NCBI GenBank assembly: GCA_012862575.1
Contig: BLSF01000036.1
Coordinates: 394,574 to 458,573 of the forward strand
DNA: 64,000 nucleotides
Reading direction: 5' to 3'
Source: Parietichytrium sp. I65-24A
Taxonomy: Eukaryota; Sar; Bigyra; Thraustochytrida; Thraustochytriidae
This document shows positions 10,766 through 36,059 of this stretch, piece by piece. A program made the position numbers and the translations under genes. The notes under the pieces were generated by a model. The model saw nothing but the letters and a program-made list of their open reading frames with translations. It did no database searches and was not told where the DNA came from. How positions within the stretch are numbered: the stretch's first letter is position 1; each line of letters opens with the position of its first letter.

Positions 10766-12157
10766 CTACAGGAACCTGGATTTCATTTGCGAGGGATTCA
10801 TGCCCACAAACTCATCTATACCTATTCGGGTTTGCTGCATTGAATCTCTGTCACGAAGGGTGACGCAGTTATCGTTCAAAGACTCAAAATCAATTGTTGC
10901 GCAGAACGGAGTGCCAATCTCGTCCTGTCTACGATATTTTTTCCCAATCGATGTGCCCGAGAGATCCATGGTTGGCGAGCACCACCGCTGTTGCCCGATT
11001 TTCTGAAAAACGTCCTTGCAGATATTCGCTTGATCTGCGTTCTTACCGATGAGTGGGAGAATTGCTACAGAGTGAGGCGCAATTTCGGGAGAGAACCGCA
11101 GGACGACGCGCTCTGTCGCCTTGCCATCGGGACTTGCAGCCGGAACCTGTTCAACAGTATATGCGTCACAGATGGCGGCAAGCACCAGCCTGTTGAGCCC
11201 AAGCGCTGGTTCAATGACAGCAGGTACCAAGGTCTCCCTCTTCGCCTTGTCTTTGTATGTCAAACCGTGTTGCGTCAGATCATATGTGCCCCTATTTGCA
11301 ATTCCCCAGAGCTCACCCCAGCCGAATGGAAAGTTGAACTCAAAGTCTATCGTTCGCTTCGCATAGTGTGCGAGATCTTCTTTGCTGTGCTCGCTAAACC
11401 TCACAGACTCCTCACGAATGCAAACCGTGTTAAAGAGCCAGTCCTTAGCTTCCGCAAGCCAATATTCGAACCACTCGGCCGAACTCTCCTCCGGGCAGAA
11501 CCATTCTAGCTCCATCTGCTCAAACTCCCTCGTTCGAAAGATGTAATTGCCCGGCGTGACCTCGTTGCGGAACGCCTTCCCAAGTTGAGCAATTCCGAAA
11601 GGCAACGGCGCACTTGTTGTGTTGCAAACGTTTTCAAAGTTGATGAAGGCACCCTGGGCAGTCTCTGGACGAAAATATGCTTCAGAGCCCTTTCCAACGA
11701 CCGGCCCTACGGAAGTCCCGAACATCAAATTGAACTCTCGCGTCTCGGACACCTGGTCGCCCCAAGGCTTGAGCTTACCGCAAGGGCACGCCCTTTCCCG
11801 AAGCAGCTCGTCCATCGACCTGGACTCGCCCGACGCCTCGACAAGATGATCCGCCCTGAATCGCTCGTTGCACTTTTTGCAGTCTACCAGCGGATCCGTA
11901 AAGTTATCCAAATGCCCAGACTTGTCCCAAACGCTCGGCGGCATAAGCACCACGGAATCTAGCCCGAAAACGTCACTTCGGCTCGTAACAAACCTTCTCC
12001 ACCACGAGTCCGCTATGTGCCTCTTCAGTAGCGAGCCCAGGGGGCCGTAGTCAAAGCTGTTCGCGAAGCCCCCATAGATCTCGCAGCTTGGGAACACAAA
12101 CCCGCGCTGTTTGCAAAGCGCCACCACTTTGCGCATATCCCGCGCTCCCCGCGACAT
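10766..12157 (-). CDS. Glycyl-tRNA synthetase, alpha-2 bacterial-type class II
   Basis: Attaches glycine to tRNA-Gly. The 463-residue product starts at the ATG at 12157, since no other in-frame ATG exists before an upstream stop. Order of features: FVFPSCEIYGG.ANSFDYGPLG at the start, SGHLDNFTDPLVDCKKC with a FRADHLVEA block, a CPCG pair, FNLMFGT, YFRPETAQGAFINF (motif 1/2 region), PFGIAQLGKAFRNE, FRTREFEQMELEWF (motif 2), FGWGELWGIANRGTYDL, and motif 3 (EPALGLNRLVLA). A C-terminal anticodon-binding domain with SIGKKYRRQDEIGTPFC follows. The sequence is the Thermus/Bacteroidetes-like alpha-2 type rather than the larger cytosolic eukaryotic GARS. No convincing mitochondrial presequence is visible, so dual or cytosolic use is possible. 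Confidence 0.93.
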   Translation of the reverse strand: MSRGARDMRKVVALCKQRGFVFPSCEIYGGFANSFDYGPLGSLLKRHIADSWWRRFVTSRSDVFGLDSVVLMPPSVWDKSGHLDNFTDPLVDCKKCNERFRADHLVEASGESRSMDELLRERACPCGKLKPWGDQVSETREFNLMFGTSVGPVVGKGSEAYFRPETAQGAFINFENVCNTTSAPLPFGIAQLGKAFRNEVTPGNYIFRTREFEQMELEWFCPEESSAEWFEYWLAEAKDWLFNTVCIREESVRFSEHSKEDLAHYAKRTIDFEFNFPFGWGELWGIANRGTYDLTQHGLTYKDKAKRETLVPAVIEPALGLNRLVLAAICDAYTVEQVPAASPDGKATERVVLRFSPEIAPHSVAILPLIGKNADQANICKDVFQKIGQQRWCSPTMDLSGTSIGKKYRRQDEIGTPFCATIDFESLNDNCVTLRDRDSMQQTRIGIDEFVGMNPSQMKSRFL

Positions 12158-31255: not shown

Positions 31256-33220
31256 TTAGGTACAAGGCAGTTTCGGGCGGTAAGTCCCATACTGATGCAC
31301 TGGAACGGTTGTTTCTAACCAGTGCATCAAGCGACGAAGGTCACTCGGCCCAAACTTGAAGTTTGCCTCATCGCTTCGACTTTCGCATTCGCATGGTGTG
31401 TAAACTATGTGGTAGATTTCTAGGCTGCGAGCCATCTTCCCGTCGTTCAGTGCAAGGTGGGAATAACCTCCACAAGTGAGCTCGATCGCAACAATATTCT
31501 TCCTAACAAAGAGAATATTTCCAAACTGGCCTCCATGTGGCATTAGCAAAATGTCTGCTTTGTGAAATGCCTGAGCTTGGGCTTCAATACTATATTTGGA
31601 AAAGTCTTCCACAAGAGTAATGTCAAGATGTGGCGAGCTGGACTGCCAGCTGCGAAGCGTACTTTGAATGTCTAACCATGCTCTCCTCTTTCCTGCTTCC
31701 CCTGCGGTGTTGTGTGGGTAAACAAGAACGTTGTACACGATATCGTTGGCTGGTCGCTCGTCGCCCGCTAAGGAGCTGAGCATGGTGCGAGCCTCTGATG
31801 CAGACATGGCTTTTCGTCTTAATAGAAAGCCCTCGCTCAACTTGTCGCGTGCCCAGTCAACAAGAGGTTTTTCGGAGAATGCGTTCATGTGATTCCAGCC
31901 CTGCACCGGAACGATGAGCTCCGAAAAACAGGTCAGCACTCCAGGAAACATATCCAGAGGAGGGGCTCCAACATCTTCACCAAACGCCCCAAGCTTGGAC
32001 ATCACAGCGCACATCCACGCATCGTGCTGGCAAAGCGGTGTTTGATGCGTCGCAACCAAATCATAATACTTGACCTTGTGAACCTCCTGACTCTTAAGGA
32101 TTGTCAAAATCGAGAAGAGCGAGTCCCAGAGTTGGTGGCCAGGGTTGTTGCGAGTGTACTGCAACAATAACGTGCGGCGGTCATAATACACAGCGGCCCG
32201 GATCCGAGTTGACAATTGATTGAATGATTCTTCTCCAGGTACCTGTCGCTGACCTGCCATGCGGATATTGCGCTGGTGACTGGCGTAGCACTCGGCGTAG
32301 TCCTGCAAGCTCATCGCGTTAGCCTGGTGCACCCACATCATTCCGCACCGATTTGTGCCCCATTCATAGTTGGTTTGCGGATTTGGGCAGTAAACGCAGC
32401 GATTATCGCGTTTGTTCAATGGGTCAACGAATATGACCCCCCGTTGTGCCTGCTTGGAGGAGTCAATGTTCCAAGACACGCAAACGTCATGAAATAGGTA
32501 CGCCGAGCCAATATCAGCATAGTCAGAGAGCGCTAAAGTAGCGCGGAGCATCGCAGGGCTGGTGGACTGCGAAAATGCTGGAAGACTCGGTAGGAACAGC
32601 GTCGGATCCCAGGAGCACATGTCATGATCGGTGAGCGACATCAAACTTGCCCCCTTAACATTTTCGAGGTGAAACTGCAGCCCAGGAATCCCCAAACTCG
32701 ACAAAAGCTCTTCTTGCACCGCCAGTTCACTGACGCCAGCTTGGGATGGTTTGAACTTTGGGCCTCTAAAATTGCATCCTCCAGCATTGGTGAGCTCCCT
32801 GCCGGACAACTTGACGCGCGTCTTCGACTTTTCCAGTTCCAGGAAATCCTGCTGAAACTCTCTCGCCTCGCGGGAGTCCCTGCCATCGTCCGGGTTGTGT
32901 GGCGAGTCCAGATATTTCCCAAACAGCTTCTCGGCATCGAACCCCGGAAGCGAGGAGTAAGAAGACCAGGACATCATGCTCGCACTGCCCGGAGTCCCTG
33001 GCGGGCCGGCAAACACACTGGACCCTCGGCCCACCATTCTCAGCACCTTTTCCCACACCCAAATAGTCCAGCCCGCGACGAGCACCAGGCCAAGGCCCAC
33101 CAGCAAGCGCCTGCGCTGGCCCACCCTGTGTGCGCGCACTTTGGACTCATCGCCCGGGGAAGCATCTTCGCCGCGCGAGGAGTCACCAGGTCGCATGATG
33201 CCGCGCGTGGAAGGCCGCAT
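31256..33220 (-). CDS. Type-II membrane glycosyltransferase, GT61-like
   Basis: Golgi/ER enzyme expected to transfer a sugar to glycans or proteins. 654 residues from the ATG at 33220 (a second Met at residue 9 is possible). A basic cytoplasmic head (QRRRLLVG) precedes one membrane segment at about 39-56 (LLVGLGLVLVAGWTIWVW), then a large lumenal domain with many Cys. The C-terminal block KADILLMPHGGQFGNILF is the glycosyltransferase-61 (DUF563) signature, in which a His-Gly pair contacts the nucleotide sugar, and VAIELTCGGYS follows. GT61 includes plant xylosyl/arabinosyltransferases and animal EOGT/POMGNT2. Donor and acceptor cannot be told. Its 3' end converges with the SNF2 gene with 132 bp between stops. 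Confidence 0.85.
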   Translation of the reverse strand: MRPSTRGIMRPGDSSRGEDASPGDESKVRAHRVGQRRRLLVGLGLVLVAGWTIWVWEKVLRMVGRGSSVFAGPPGTPGSASMMSWSSYSSLPGFDAEKLFGKYLDSPHNPDDGRDSREAREFQQDFLELEKSKTRVKLSGRELTNAGGCNFRGPKFKPSQAGVSELAVQEELLSSLGIPGLQFHLENVKGASLMSLTDHDMCSWDPTLFLPSLPAFSQSTSPAMLRATLALSDYADIGSAYLFHDVCVSWNIDSSKQAQRGVIFVDPLNKRDNRCVYCPNPQTNYEWGTNRCGMMWVHQANAMSLQDYAECYASHQRNIRMAGQRQVPGEESFNQLSTRIRAAVYYDRRTLLLQYTRNNPGHQLWDSLFSILTILKSQEVHKVKYYDLVATHQTPLCQHDAWMCAVMSKLGAFGEDVGAPPLDMFPGVLTCFSELIVPVQGWNHMNAFSEKPLVDWARDKLSEGFLLRRKAMSASEARTMLSSLAGDERPANDIVYNVLVYPHNTAGEAGKRRAWLDIQSTLRSWQSSSPHLDITLVEDFSKYSIEAQAQAFHKADILLMPHGGQFGNILFVRKNIVAIELTCGGYSHLALNDGKMARSLEIYHIVYTPCECESRSDEANFKFGPSDLRRLMHWLETTVPVHQYGTYRPKLPCT

Positions 33221-33411
33221 TCCCGGAGTCTATCGCGAGCAGGACGGCGCTGTTTTGCTCGTTCCGCACTTGCCTCCCAGTCTCGCGGCTCTCGTGGCGG
33301 TGTAACGGGATTTGTGACACTCTGACACCACGTATTGTAGCTTGTCTGACACATTCTGACACTGTCGCTACCAACGAACAGTGCGAACGATTGAGTTCAA
33401 ACTAAAAGGTA

Positions 33412-33979
33412 TCATAACAAACACATAATGCATAGTTCGGCATCGCGCCGCCTCAGTGGCAAAAAGTAGGTCAGTTTTGAAATGAATCGAATCATGATGT
33501 TCCTCGCGCCGTTGATGTCCCTTGGAAATGTAAAGGATTTACATTGTTTGCAATCGTATGTGTCAGATCCTCCAAGTTTCCGATCCAGGTTTCCGCAATT
33601 CCCACAAGTCATAGACGTATAGACGTATACGCTTCATCGCACATTATGACCGTCGTTTTGAGGGTCACTTTCGCTTTATTGATGAGCATTTGTCTGAACC
33701 CAACGTGTCTCCATCCCAACATGGCCCGAACAGTTTTCTTTCCAATTTTGCGCCGGCGGTTTGGGTTATCCTTCACAGCGACCATTTTCGATGATTCGAA
33801 TTTGGGCAAAAGGATTACTTTGTAGGTCGAGACGAGAAATTTGCAAAGAGCCTGGTGAAGTGGTTAACTTGGTTTTTGTTTCTCCACAGAAGCTTCTCGC
33901 AGGCCGCTTTCATTTTCATCCGTTTCACTAACCCACGTTCATTATCTAGCTCTTGTTCAAAAAAATCTGACTGGTGATA
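33412..33979 (-). pseudogene. Decayed TnpB/Fanzor-family RNA-guided nuclease gene, C-terminal half
   Basis: TnpB (prokaryotes) and Fanzor (eukaryotes) are transposon-carried RNA-guided DNA nucleases. Three consecutive minus-strand segments align to the family in order. 33979-33843 holds a basic helical part. 33842-33613 holds VILLPKFESSKMV, then KKTVRAML and FRQMLINKA, ending in CDEAYTS with the RuvC-II Glu. 33612-33412 holds the zinc ribbon CGNCG then CKQC, and RDINGARN with the RuvC-III Asp. The frame breaks twice. A single base appears missing near 33838-33843, and between the last two segments an 8-bp unit ATAGACGT is duplicated (33611-33618 and 33619-33626 on the plus strand). The RuvC-I Asp and N-terminal half are absent, with a TAG at 33982-33980. 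No transposon ends recognised. Confidence 0.88.
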
Positions 33980-34688: not shown

Positions 34689-35579
34689 CTAAGCTGTGGC
34701 ACCGACGAGACGAGCTTCGTTTCCGAAATCAAGCTCGTTTATCGAGGCCTTGCGCCCAAGAAATGGGATCCAGTGTGATTTGGGGGAAAGGAACTTGAAA
34801 TCGACACCGCCTGGGTAGTAAGGGTTGCTCTTGAGCTCCCTCACACGGCGTTCTTCGTCCTTCTTCTCCTGCTTGGCGCGTATCTTAGCAGCCTTCTCCG
34901 CTTGCTTTTCGGGGGTCTCCTTCCTGAAACTTAGACGCTTGCTCTGACTAATGATGGACTTTTTAATCGAGGTGGATTTTGCCTTCTTCTCCTTATCACG
35001 CCGAGAGGCCGAGAGCTTGGAATCTCCTTCACTCTCGTTGCCGCTGTCCTTTGCCGAACGACCTCCGGAAAGCAGCCGTGAGAAGCGCACGCTCAGCCGG
35101 GAGCCTTTGGACTTTTCGCTTTTCTCAGACTTCTTGTGCGCCACCTTGGGAGCTTTCTCTTTGGTTCCAGGTCTTGGAATATTGAAGGAATCATATTCAT
35201 CAGAGTCTGCATCGATCTGAACCTCAACGTCGGGGTTCAGGTTGGACTCTACAGCGATATCGTCAGAGTATACATCATCGATGCTTGCGCGACTCGCCTT
35301 TGACGCTACCGTCGACCTCCCTGGGCTTTCACCGGTACGGTCTGAATATCCGGACTTTCTTGATCGCTGACCGTGACTCTTTCGCTTCTCCGTGGCCCAC
35401 GCCACAGGGTCCTGGATGGCGCTGTTGCCTGCTTCGAATGTCTCGCGGTGGCCCTTTTCACTAGGGTCTACTTCGCCGTCAGGCTCTACGGCCTTTCCAT
35501 TCGTCCCGCGCGACGAGTCAAAAGGGTCGACCTCCTTCTTTTCGCCGCGCTTCTTACTACTCCTCAGCAACCTCCTCAT
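34689..35579 (-). CDS. Ser/Lys-rich low-complexity protein, unknown function
   Basis: 296 residues from the ATG at 35579 (MRRLLRSSKKRGEKKE). The sequence is dominated by Ser, Lys, Arg and Asp/Glu and is predicted to be largely disordered. It has a short acidic stretch (EVQIDADSDEYDSF, about 125-138), repeated KSEKSEKSK-type basic motifs, and a possible coiled segment near 225-250 (EKQAEKAAKIRAKQEKKDEE). The last ~45 residues are more ordered (NPYYPGGVDFKFL, SHWIPFLGRK) and could be the functional module. No domain, signal or membrane segment recognised. The long open frame and coherent codon use support a real gene; the product is hypothetical. Confidence 0.7.
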   Translation of the reverse strand: MRRLLRSSKKRGEKKEVDPFDSSRGTNGKAVEPDGEVDPSEKGHRETFEAGNSAIQDPVAWATEKRKSHGQRSRKSGYSDRTGESPGRSTVASKASRASIDDVYSDDIAVESNLNPDVEVQIDADSDEYDSFNIPRPGTKEKAPKVAHKKSEKSEKSKGSRLSVRFSRLLSGGRSAKDSGNESEGDSKLSASRRDKEKKAKSTSIKKSIISQSKRLSFRKETPEKQAEKAAKIRAKQEKKDEERRVRELKSNPYYPGGVDFKFLSPKSHWIPFLGRKASINELDFGNEARLVGATA

Positions 35580-36059
35580 CCTGGCAGCCAAAGTTCTGCT
35601 CGTATGCTACACCACACCTCGGTCTTTGCGCCACCTACAAGCTCGATGCGCAAGCACCTAGCCCGATTTCTATTTCGCAGCACCCGCACCACCAGCTGCC
35701 AGCCCCCACGTGCCCCGAAACACTTGCAGTCGTGACAGCCCAATCCCACAGCAGTCCAGTACAGAGCAGAGCAGTGCAAACAGAGAGCTTGTGCAAGACA
35801 ATAGCGGCAAATGTCTCGCCACTGCCACTGCCGCTGCGCTCCGTGCTCTCTCCGGCCTCACTAGACTCACTTCCGTCTGTGTTGCTTCCTTCCTGGCTTC
35901 CTTCCTTCCCTCTCTCCCTCTATCTCCCTCTTCTGCTTTTGCTGCTTCCGTCTCCCCTACTCTATCTACTCTCACTCACCACACTGCTATGTCCGAGTCT
36001 CCCTCCACCTCTCTCCTACTCTCCTACTCTCTCTCTCTCTCTCTCTCTCTCTTAGCGGT

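Follow-up and report, generated by a model that had tools for sequence, protein, structure and literature searches.

Within the window, a 64,000-nucleotide stretch of contig BLSF01000036.1 of Parietichytrium sp. I65-24A, a minus-strand region carries C-terminal motifs of a TnpB/Fanzor nuclease in interrupted reading frames. Which element left this remnant, and how was that element built when complete? Very probably, the feature is what remains of an IS607-type transposon with a Fanzor2 nuclease, a copy that is now dead and truncated at its 5' end.

A nuclease relic in three pieces

The remnant and its neighbors are the following (positions in the window).

33387..33940, minus: entire relic, comprising the C-terminal portion of a Fanzor2/TnpB gene and the transposon right end (blastn, tblastn, PF07282)
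33851..33940 (start approximate), minus: piece 1, ahead of RuvC-II (tblastn with the C116 relative, reading frame)
33848..33851, minus: frame break between pieces 1 and 2 (frame change)
33621..33848, minus: piece 2, ending at the RuvC-II block CDEAYTS (tblastn with the C116 relative)
33611..33626, plus: frame-breaking 8-bp tandem duplication, two copies of ATAGACGT (33611-33618, 33619-33626) (sequence)
33412..33612, minus: piece 3, C4 zinc ribbon and RuvC-III RDINGARN, up to the stop codon (PF07282)
33387..33503, minus: right end common to two other genome copies (blastn)
31256..33220, minus: downstream host gene, glycosyltransferase 61-like, outside the element (PF04577, E=3.4e-7)
34689..35591, minus: upstream 300-aa ORF without Pfam match, outside the element (ORF and Pfam scan)

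The relic thus sits between two minus-strand ORFs; other genes in the window include an SNF2-type helicase, a cytochrome c heme lyase and the glycosyltransferase 61 (Pfam), a gene content suggestive of a eukaryote.

An earlier note on this DNA had described the RuvC-II block CDEAYTS, a C4 zinc ribbon and RuvC-III RDINGARN in this order on the minus strand, and all of them are present. Its assignment to the TnpB/Fanzor family is borne out by profile searches: piece 3 (MTCGNCG...CKQC...RDINGARN) matches PF07282 with E=6.1e-9 and 36.4 bits, above the cut-off of 26.3, and a PF07282 search over the whole genome recovers the locus with E=2.2e-7. Piece 2 matches the same family weakly, below the cut-off (E=0.034). 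The NCBIfam TnpB models gave weak matches below their cut-offs for piece 3, and none of them matched piece 2.

The C116 relative from the same genome aligns with the relic by tblastn at 33860-33537 (44% identity, E=2.3e-22), which covers piece 2, and at 33928-33779 (40% identity, E=5.3e-6), corresponding to piece 1; by blastn the two are 58% identical over 466 columns (33940-33482). CDEAYTS and RDINGARN align with the relatives, the RuvC-II Glu lying before TS and the RuvC-III RD after C4. As the three pieces are in order, on one strand and similar to one relative, chance is ruled out as the cause, and the claim that a Fanzor-bearing element died here holds. The 8-bp duplication is real and placed as the note had it. 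The second frame break exists as well, at 33851-33848, ca. 8 bases away from the 33838-33843 given for it.

The note also held that the element died recently, with its catalytic core intact. This we do not find. Seven queries taken from relatives, namely five Fanzor and two TnpA proteins, were run against the window, and clear homology was confined to 33928-33460; elsewhere in the window the best matches had E=0.006 or worse, e.g., TnpA at 12016 and 39075, and we attribute them to chance. Neither blastn nor tblastn with the relatives found homology upstream of ∼33940, which means that RuvC-I is absent and that the locus is a fragment, not a nuclease gene. In the same window search, no remnants of the N-terminal half or of the RuvC-I Asp (DPG) were found near the relic, and the two TnpA queries revealed no serine recombinase TnpA there. 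The matched part of the C116 relative comprises its residues 101-245, and the DPG of RuvC-I precedes it; the only catalytic residues left in the relic are the RuvC-II Glu and the RuvC-III Asp. Protein identity to this closest relative, which is itself interrupted, is 39-61% depending on the piece. The 8-bp duplication is one lesion among those of a truncated copy. Judged by its sequence, the relic is a 5'-truncated, dead copy of a Fanzor-family transposon, and by itself an ordinary one.

Relatives in the Parietichytrium genome

The genome searched comprises 42.5 Mb in 172 contigs. It yielded 12 matches to PF07282, all above the cut-off and including the relic, and four to PF00239; TnpA was found in C134, C61, C116, and C148. 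The IS607 transposase model NF033518 scored 141.9 and 149.4 bits in two relatives, the cut-off being 110. Fuller relatives in the same genome, which the earlier note had suspected, therefore exist, including two intact 637-aa Fanzor2 ORFs. These belong to group A (C61 and C134), whose members are 97.1% identical over 2,093 bases and have different flanks, each with the intact Fanzor ORF and with a TnpA containing one stop per copy at differing positions. Between the two group A Fanzor frames, 25 synonymous and 18 nonsynonymous changes lie outside the overlap of the two genes; these raw counts suggest purifying selection. Group B consists of C40, C14, C8, C142, C97, and C26, with long ORFs in C40 and C14. 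In C116, TnpA is intact and the Fanzor gene is interrupted by other sequence. Further PF07282 places above the cut-off are C6:362974-363174, within a 402-codon open frame, and C116:7773-7943.

In two alignments, of four and of five relatives, both DPG and the Glu before YTS are invariant. We interpret the available part of PMC10711439 as giving a DPG RuvC-I together with an alternative RuvC-II Glu as the signature of the Fanzor clade. Of this Fanzor2/pro-Fanzor signature, the relic has the Glu before YTS, and DPG is seen in the relatives only. In a tree of 54 proteins, in which the relic piece fills 32% of the columns and C116 forms a long branch, the middle piece of the relic groups with C116 (support 99/93), and these two with group B (89/79); group A is found elsewhere, on a very long branch. 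Such elements likely entered this genome more than once, to judge from the tree, the long branches making this unsure.

Some features of the surroundings of these copies were recorded. In C116 (L012) and C148 (L045) the IS607 element lies beside Erv1/Alr-like, WLM-domain, and capsule-synthesis-like genes, and the C148 TnpA region is 99.4% identical to that of C116 over 1,124 bases; this stretch is possibly virus-derived. The best-preserved Fanzor elements, L014 and L015, have a local G+C content of 42-44%, compared with 50.6% in the window. Near contig ends, L036 (C4:1574) and L038 (C8:58) show short similarity (87% and 72% identity, respectively) to the beginning of the Fanzor frame in C116, perhaps a repeat of contig ends.

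A transposase gene nested in the nuclease frame

In group A, the Fanzor ORF encloses the whole TnpA frame at a shift of +1. TnpA of C116 is spanned by a +1 frame of 291 codons, and in group B the +1 frame spans the surviving C-terminal part of TnpA. For group A, C116, and a part of group B, respectively, the +1 frame stayed open in 87, 57, and 1136 of 5000 synonymous-codon shuffles, in 354, 138, and 1242 of 5000 sequences with codons drawn from the gene's own usage, and in 53, 0, and 41 of 5000 with host codon usage. As the own-genome evidence is modest when taken alone, relatives were collected. Viral contigs gave no match to a single-protein query, and 5 and 16 loci to alignment queries; to these we added the best 80 of 114 genome-contig loci, 51 of the 80 being cyanobacterial by record title and bacteria of other kinds being represented as well.

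With three loci from the own genome, the 101 collected loci (the genome-contig part being the best 80 of 114) made up a tally of 104. Both genes are recognizable in 97 of these; the search applied gave no TnpA in five and no TnpB in two. Relative to TnpA, TnpB is read in +1 at 91 of the 97 loci; among the six exceptions, L076, L078, L114, L117, and L119 have broken or short frames, and L124 has both matches in one frame. A further tally of 90 loci, from which L047 was left out as a canonical element with a 44-base overlap, counted TnpB as long if its frame stayed open for 270 codons or more ahead of the core match, and TnpA as full from at least 170 codons. A full TnpA with a long TnpB was found in 49 loci, and a shorter TnpA, in some cases barely so (164-165 codons), with a long TnpB in 35; both were short in five, and C116 alone had TnpA with a short TnpB. 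Among the genome-contig loci (best 80 of 114), the long TnpB frame is present in 65 of the 70 tallied. The overlap in the 49 loci is 356-711 bases, with a median of 536. To our knowledge, same-strand overlaps of such length are unusual outside viruses. A long Fanzor2/TnpB ORF with TnpA nested within it in +1 is thus seen in 84 of the 90 loci, and the arrangement is conserved from cyanobacteria to the Parietichytrium genome; it was also noted at L015:5324-7234 (+), L014:4397-6307 (-), and L012:6096-6975 (-).

Selection on both frames

From 65 loci with a usable TnpA (intact, free of N, with TnpB in +1 where tested, and with same-contig duplicates dropped), 36 TnpAs below 70% identity were kept, and stops were counted in these with the first 20 codons excluded. 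The 26 elements of the Fanzor clade have 19 stops in the +1 frame of TnpA, where codon shuffles predict 108.2 (Fisher p=4e-28), and 338 in the +2 frame, where they predict 351.4. Per element, +1 stops number none in 17 of the 26, four in L056 and L061, three in L125 and L146, and one in five. In the ten canonical IS607 controls, unlike the nested clade, +1 stops are at the chance level (149 observed, 151.8 expected). Two of the ten, L156 and L158, were rejected as controls, since on reading both belong to the nested clade; without them the counts are 149 and 142.7.

At fourfold sites, TnpA differs less than the TnpB beyond the overlap in 18 of 20 disjoint pairs drawn from 118 (Wilcoxon p=1e-4), the opposite direction being seen in L112/L118 and L134/L137. 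The canonical control for this comparison, with two overlapping pairs only, is uninformative. In the group A pair, 10 of the 687 bases of the overlap differ, compared with 43 of 1,192 in the rest (p=0.006); since eight of the ten alter the Fanzor extension and seven alter TnpA, this pair alone is no proof of selection on residues.

The Trp of a PYW motif is present in all 49 aligned extensions. In the 40 loci where it falls within a recognized TnpA, the overlying TnpA codon is always Leu, CTG in 20 and TTG in 20, while 23% of the 767 Leu codons of the same TnpAs (those 40 included) end in G. The Trp of a second motif, SWFS, is found in 45 of 49 extensions; where within TnpA (33 loci), it lies over Val in 23 (all GTG, background 14%), Leu in seven, and Met in three. 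The rows of these codon counts are related by descent and hence are not independent trials. That a third base appears fixed while the first base varies is hard to explain otherwise. Moreover, no TnpA is recognizable within 2.2 kb upstream of L060, which lies on a viral contig of 174 kb; the frame at the TnpA position is full of stops, and the extension of L060 nevertheless retains PYW and SWF. Taken together, the depletion of stops, the conserved silent sites of TnpA, and the forced third base of Leu codons suggest that an N-terminal domain has been overprinted on TnpA. Comparison of these predicted frames shows that most or all of TnpA falls within the TnpB/Fanzor ORF, at a shift of +1, with both the overlap and the double selection evident.

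The N-terminal extension

An AlphaFold2 model of L058 from an alignment of 42 rows has a mean pLDDT of 73. Residues 1-79, 101-114, and 132-154 are below 50, PYW...LWLP (81-100) is at 75-82, the surroundings of SWFS are at 49-69, and the nuclease core is mostly above 80. This profile points to an extension that would be mostly flexible, with one short segment that perhaps serves for docking. A Foldseek search with the model returned 9b0l first (E=2.7e-21), followed by TnpB and Cas12f structures. In the group A protein, the match to the NCBIfam TnpB model sets in at residue 222 and scores less than the cut-off. The likeliest role of the extension may be to steady the nuclease or its RNA, a guess to which we give about even chances.

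On a Trichormus variabilis plasmid (L168:801-2534), TnpB homology starts 525 bases (175 codons) before the annotated start. The frame is open throughout these 525 bases and carries PYW and SWFS; it overlaps a TnpA with one stop, lying in the other frame and unlisted in the plasmid's gene table, which is incomplete by its own account.

In the alignment of 49 nested-clade TnpB rows from all sources, the RuvC motifs are kept; the zinc ribbon has at most one Cys in 28 rows, at least three in 17, and is unreadable in four.

Right end and guide RNA

Conserved 3' flanks, for which the earlier note had proposed to search the assembly, were found. Over 122 columns, the stretch 33503-33387 shares 85% identity with C7:635311 (L010:1501-1618, also showing the right end only), and 33442-33383 is 78% identical over 69 columns to C47:82125, so that the right end of the relic, common to both siblings, is at ∼33387. 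A 23-base right-end query with at most three mismatches found both sibling places and nothing else, missing the relic, which is without three of the bases. The siblings seem to be truncated too, as their similarity is detectable only over these last stretches. The C47 sibling (L011:1494-1560) is flanked by two exact 12-base direct repeats (AGTCAGTCGACT); these are unexpected for IS607 and, as a single case, may be due to chance. At the ends of the two 97% copies (C61 and C134), no target duplication was evident by eye.

From the shared right end, the guide RNA scaffold would end at ∼33387 and the guide would be host DNA below it; the earlier expectation of a guide RNA near the 3' end is retained in this respect, and its range of 33220-33412 does not hold as a whole. 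Folding of the right end gave z=+1.09 for the relic (rank 173 of 200 shuffles) and z=-2.05 for C134 (7 of 200), whose 97% copy C61 ranked 44 of 200. A comparison of 15 loci and of the relic's surroundings with Rfam found nothing. As only one of six right ends (C134) was within the best 5% of its own shuffles, we do not claim a guide RNA structure.

Origin of the relic

In life, the right end would have supplied a guide RNA with which the Fanzor cut the adjacent matching site, thereby helping the element to persist, and TnpA, a serine recombinase, would have moved it. The full plan appears in the own-genome relatives, in which one locus would encode two proteins, the N-terminal extension of Fanzor lying over a TnpA shifted by +1; this part has been lost from the relic. 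Its membership in IS607 rests on the relatives, as the window holds no TnpA, left end, or RuvC-I. This leaves room for a remnant of Fanzor1, carried by a eukaryotic DNA transposon rather than IS607: the relic comes without a transposase, and Fanzor1, according to the portion of PMC3627910 at hand, likewise combines a zinc ribbon with these C-terminal motifs. Still, the closest relatives of the relic are linked to IS607, and we regard a Fanzor1 origin as very unlikely.

The breaks, too, could be read differently. A host gene with a domesticated Fanzor C-terminal domain might be spliced around them, as the genome is eukaryote-like and introns could mask a break; yet the 8-bp tandem duplication is exact and falls within a motif, several stops surround the pieces, and no adjoining exon with Fanzor homology was found in the window. 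We give domestication hardly any credence. Errors of assembly in a living gene deserve equally little: the breaks are known from the assembled sequence rather than from reads, but RuvC-I and the N-terminal half are missing regardless of them. A dead, truncated IS607-type copy remains the reading that we adopt.

Comparison with known systems

Compared with IS607-type Fanzor2, as described in the accessible parts of PMC3627910 and PMC10711439, the relic shares the zinc ribbon, the Glu before YTS, and the RD motif, and differs in being truncated and broken. Its own-genome relatives share the DPG RuvC-I and the IS607 TnpA, while their +1 nesting of TnpA has no description in those parts. The best solved sequence relative of the own-genome Fanzor is mimivirus Fanzor2, TnpB-like L79 (PDB 9b0l; E=1.2e-19), which is viral, unlike the relic. 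A part of its N-terminal region, NSW included, can be aligned to the L060 extension, PYW being outside that alignment; we found no printed account of the function of this mimivirus extension. The pro-Fanzor TnpBs of IS607 elements in the available text of PMC10711439 are bacterial, again unlike the relic. Canonical IS607 elements share the transposase family with the relatives, and ISDra2 TnpB shares the nuclease fold.

Overlap of the two IS607 ORFs as such has been noted: it is frequent according to the section of PMC6188088 available, and present in one of two IS607 layouts in that of PMC9956272. In the main text of PMC10711439, the words overlap, nested, and extension are absent. Among the papers listed in searches of the literature (titles and the starts of abstracts, most subscription papers being outside it), none gives an account of a TnpB domain encoded over TnpA. 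The gene arrangement seems new in its extent and in its double selection.

Implications

The interest thus lies in the family of the relic, not in the relic. We think it quite probable that a conserved N-terminal domain (PYW...LWLP, SWFS) has been overprinted on TnpA, that both frames are selected, and that the nuclease frame can outlive TnpA. Nesting would tie the two genes together, and one transcript could carry both. It may also have eased the passage of the Fanzor2/pro-Fanzor clade, unlike that of other TnpBs, into eukaryotes and giant viruses. Should the domain be real and its coding sequence overlap TnpA, proteins annotated from a late start would be without a conserved part, and experiments on such proteins may use incomplete enzymes. 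To the question raised in the available part of PMC10711439, why this lineage of TnpB yielded Fanzors, gene architecture would offer a testable answer.
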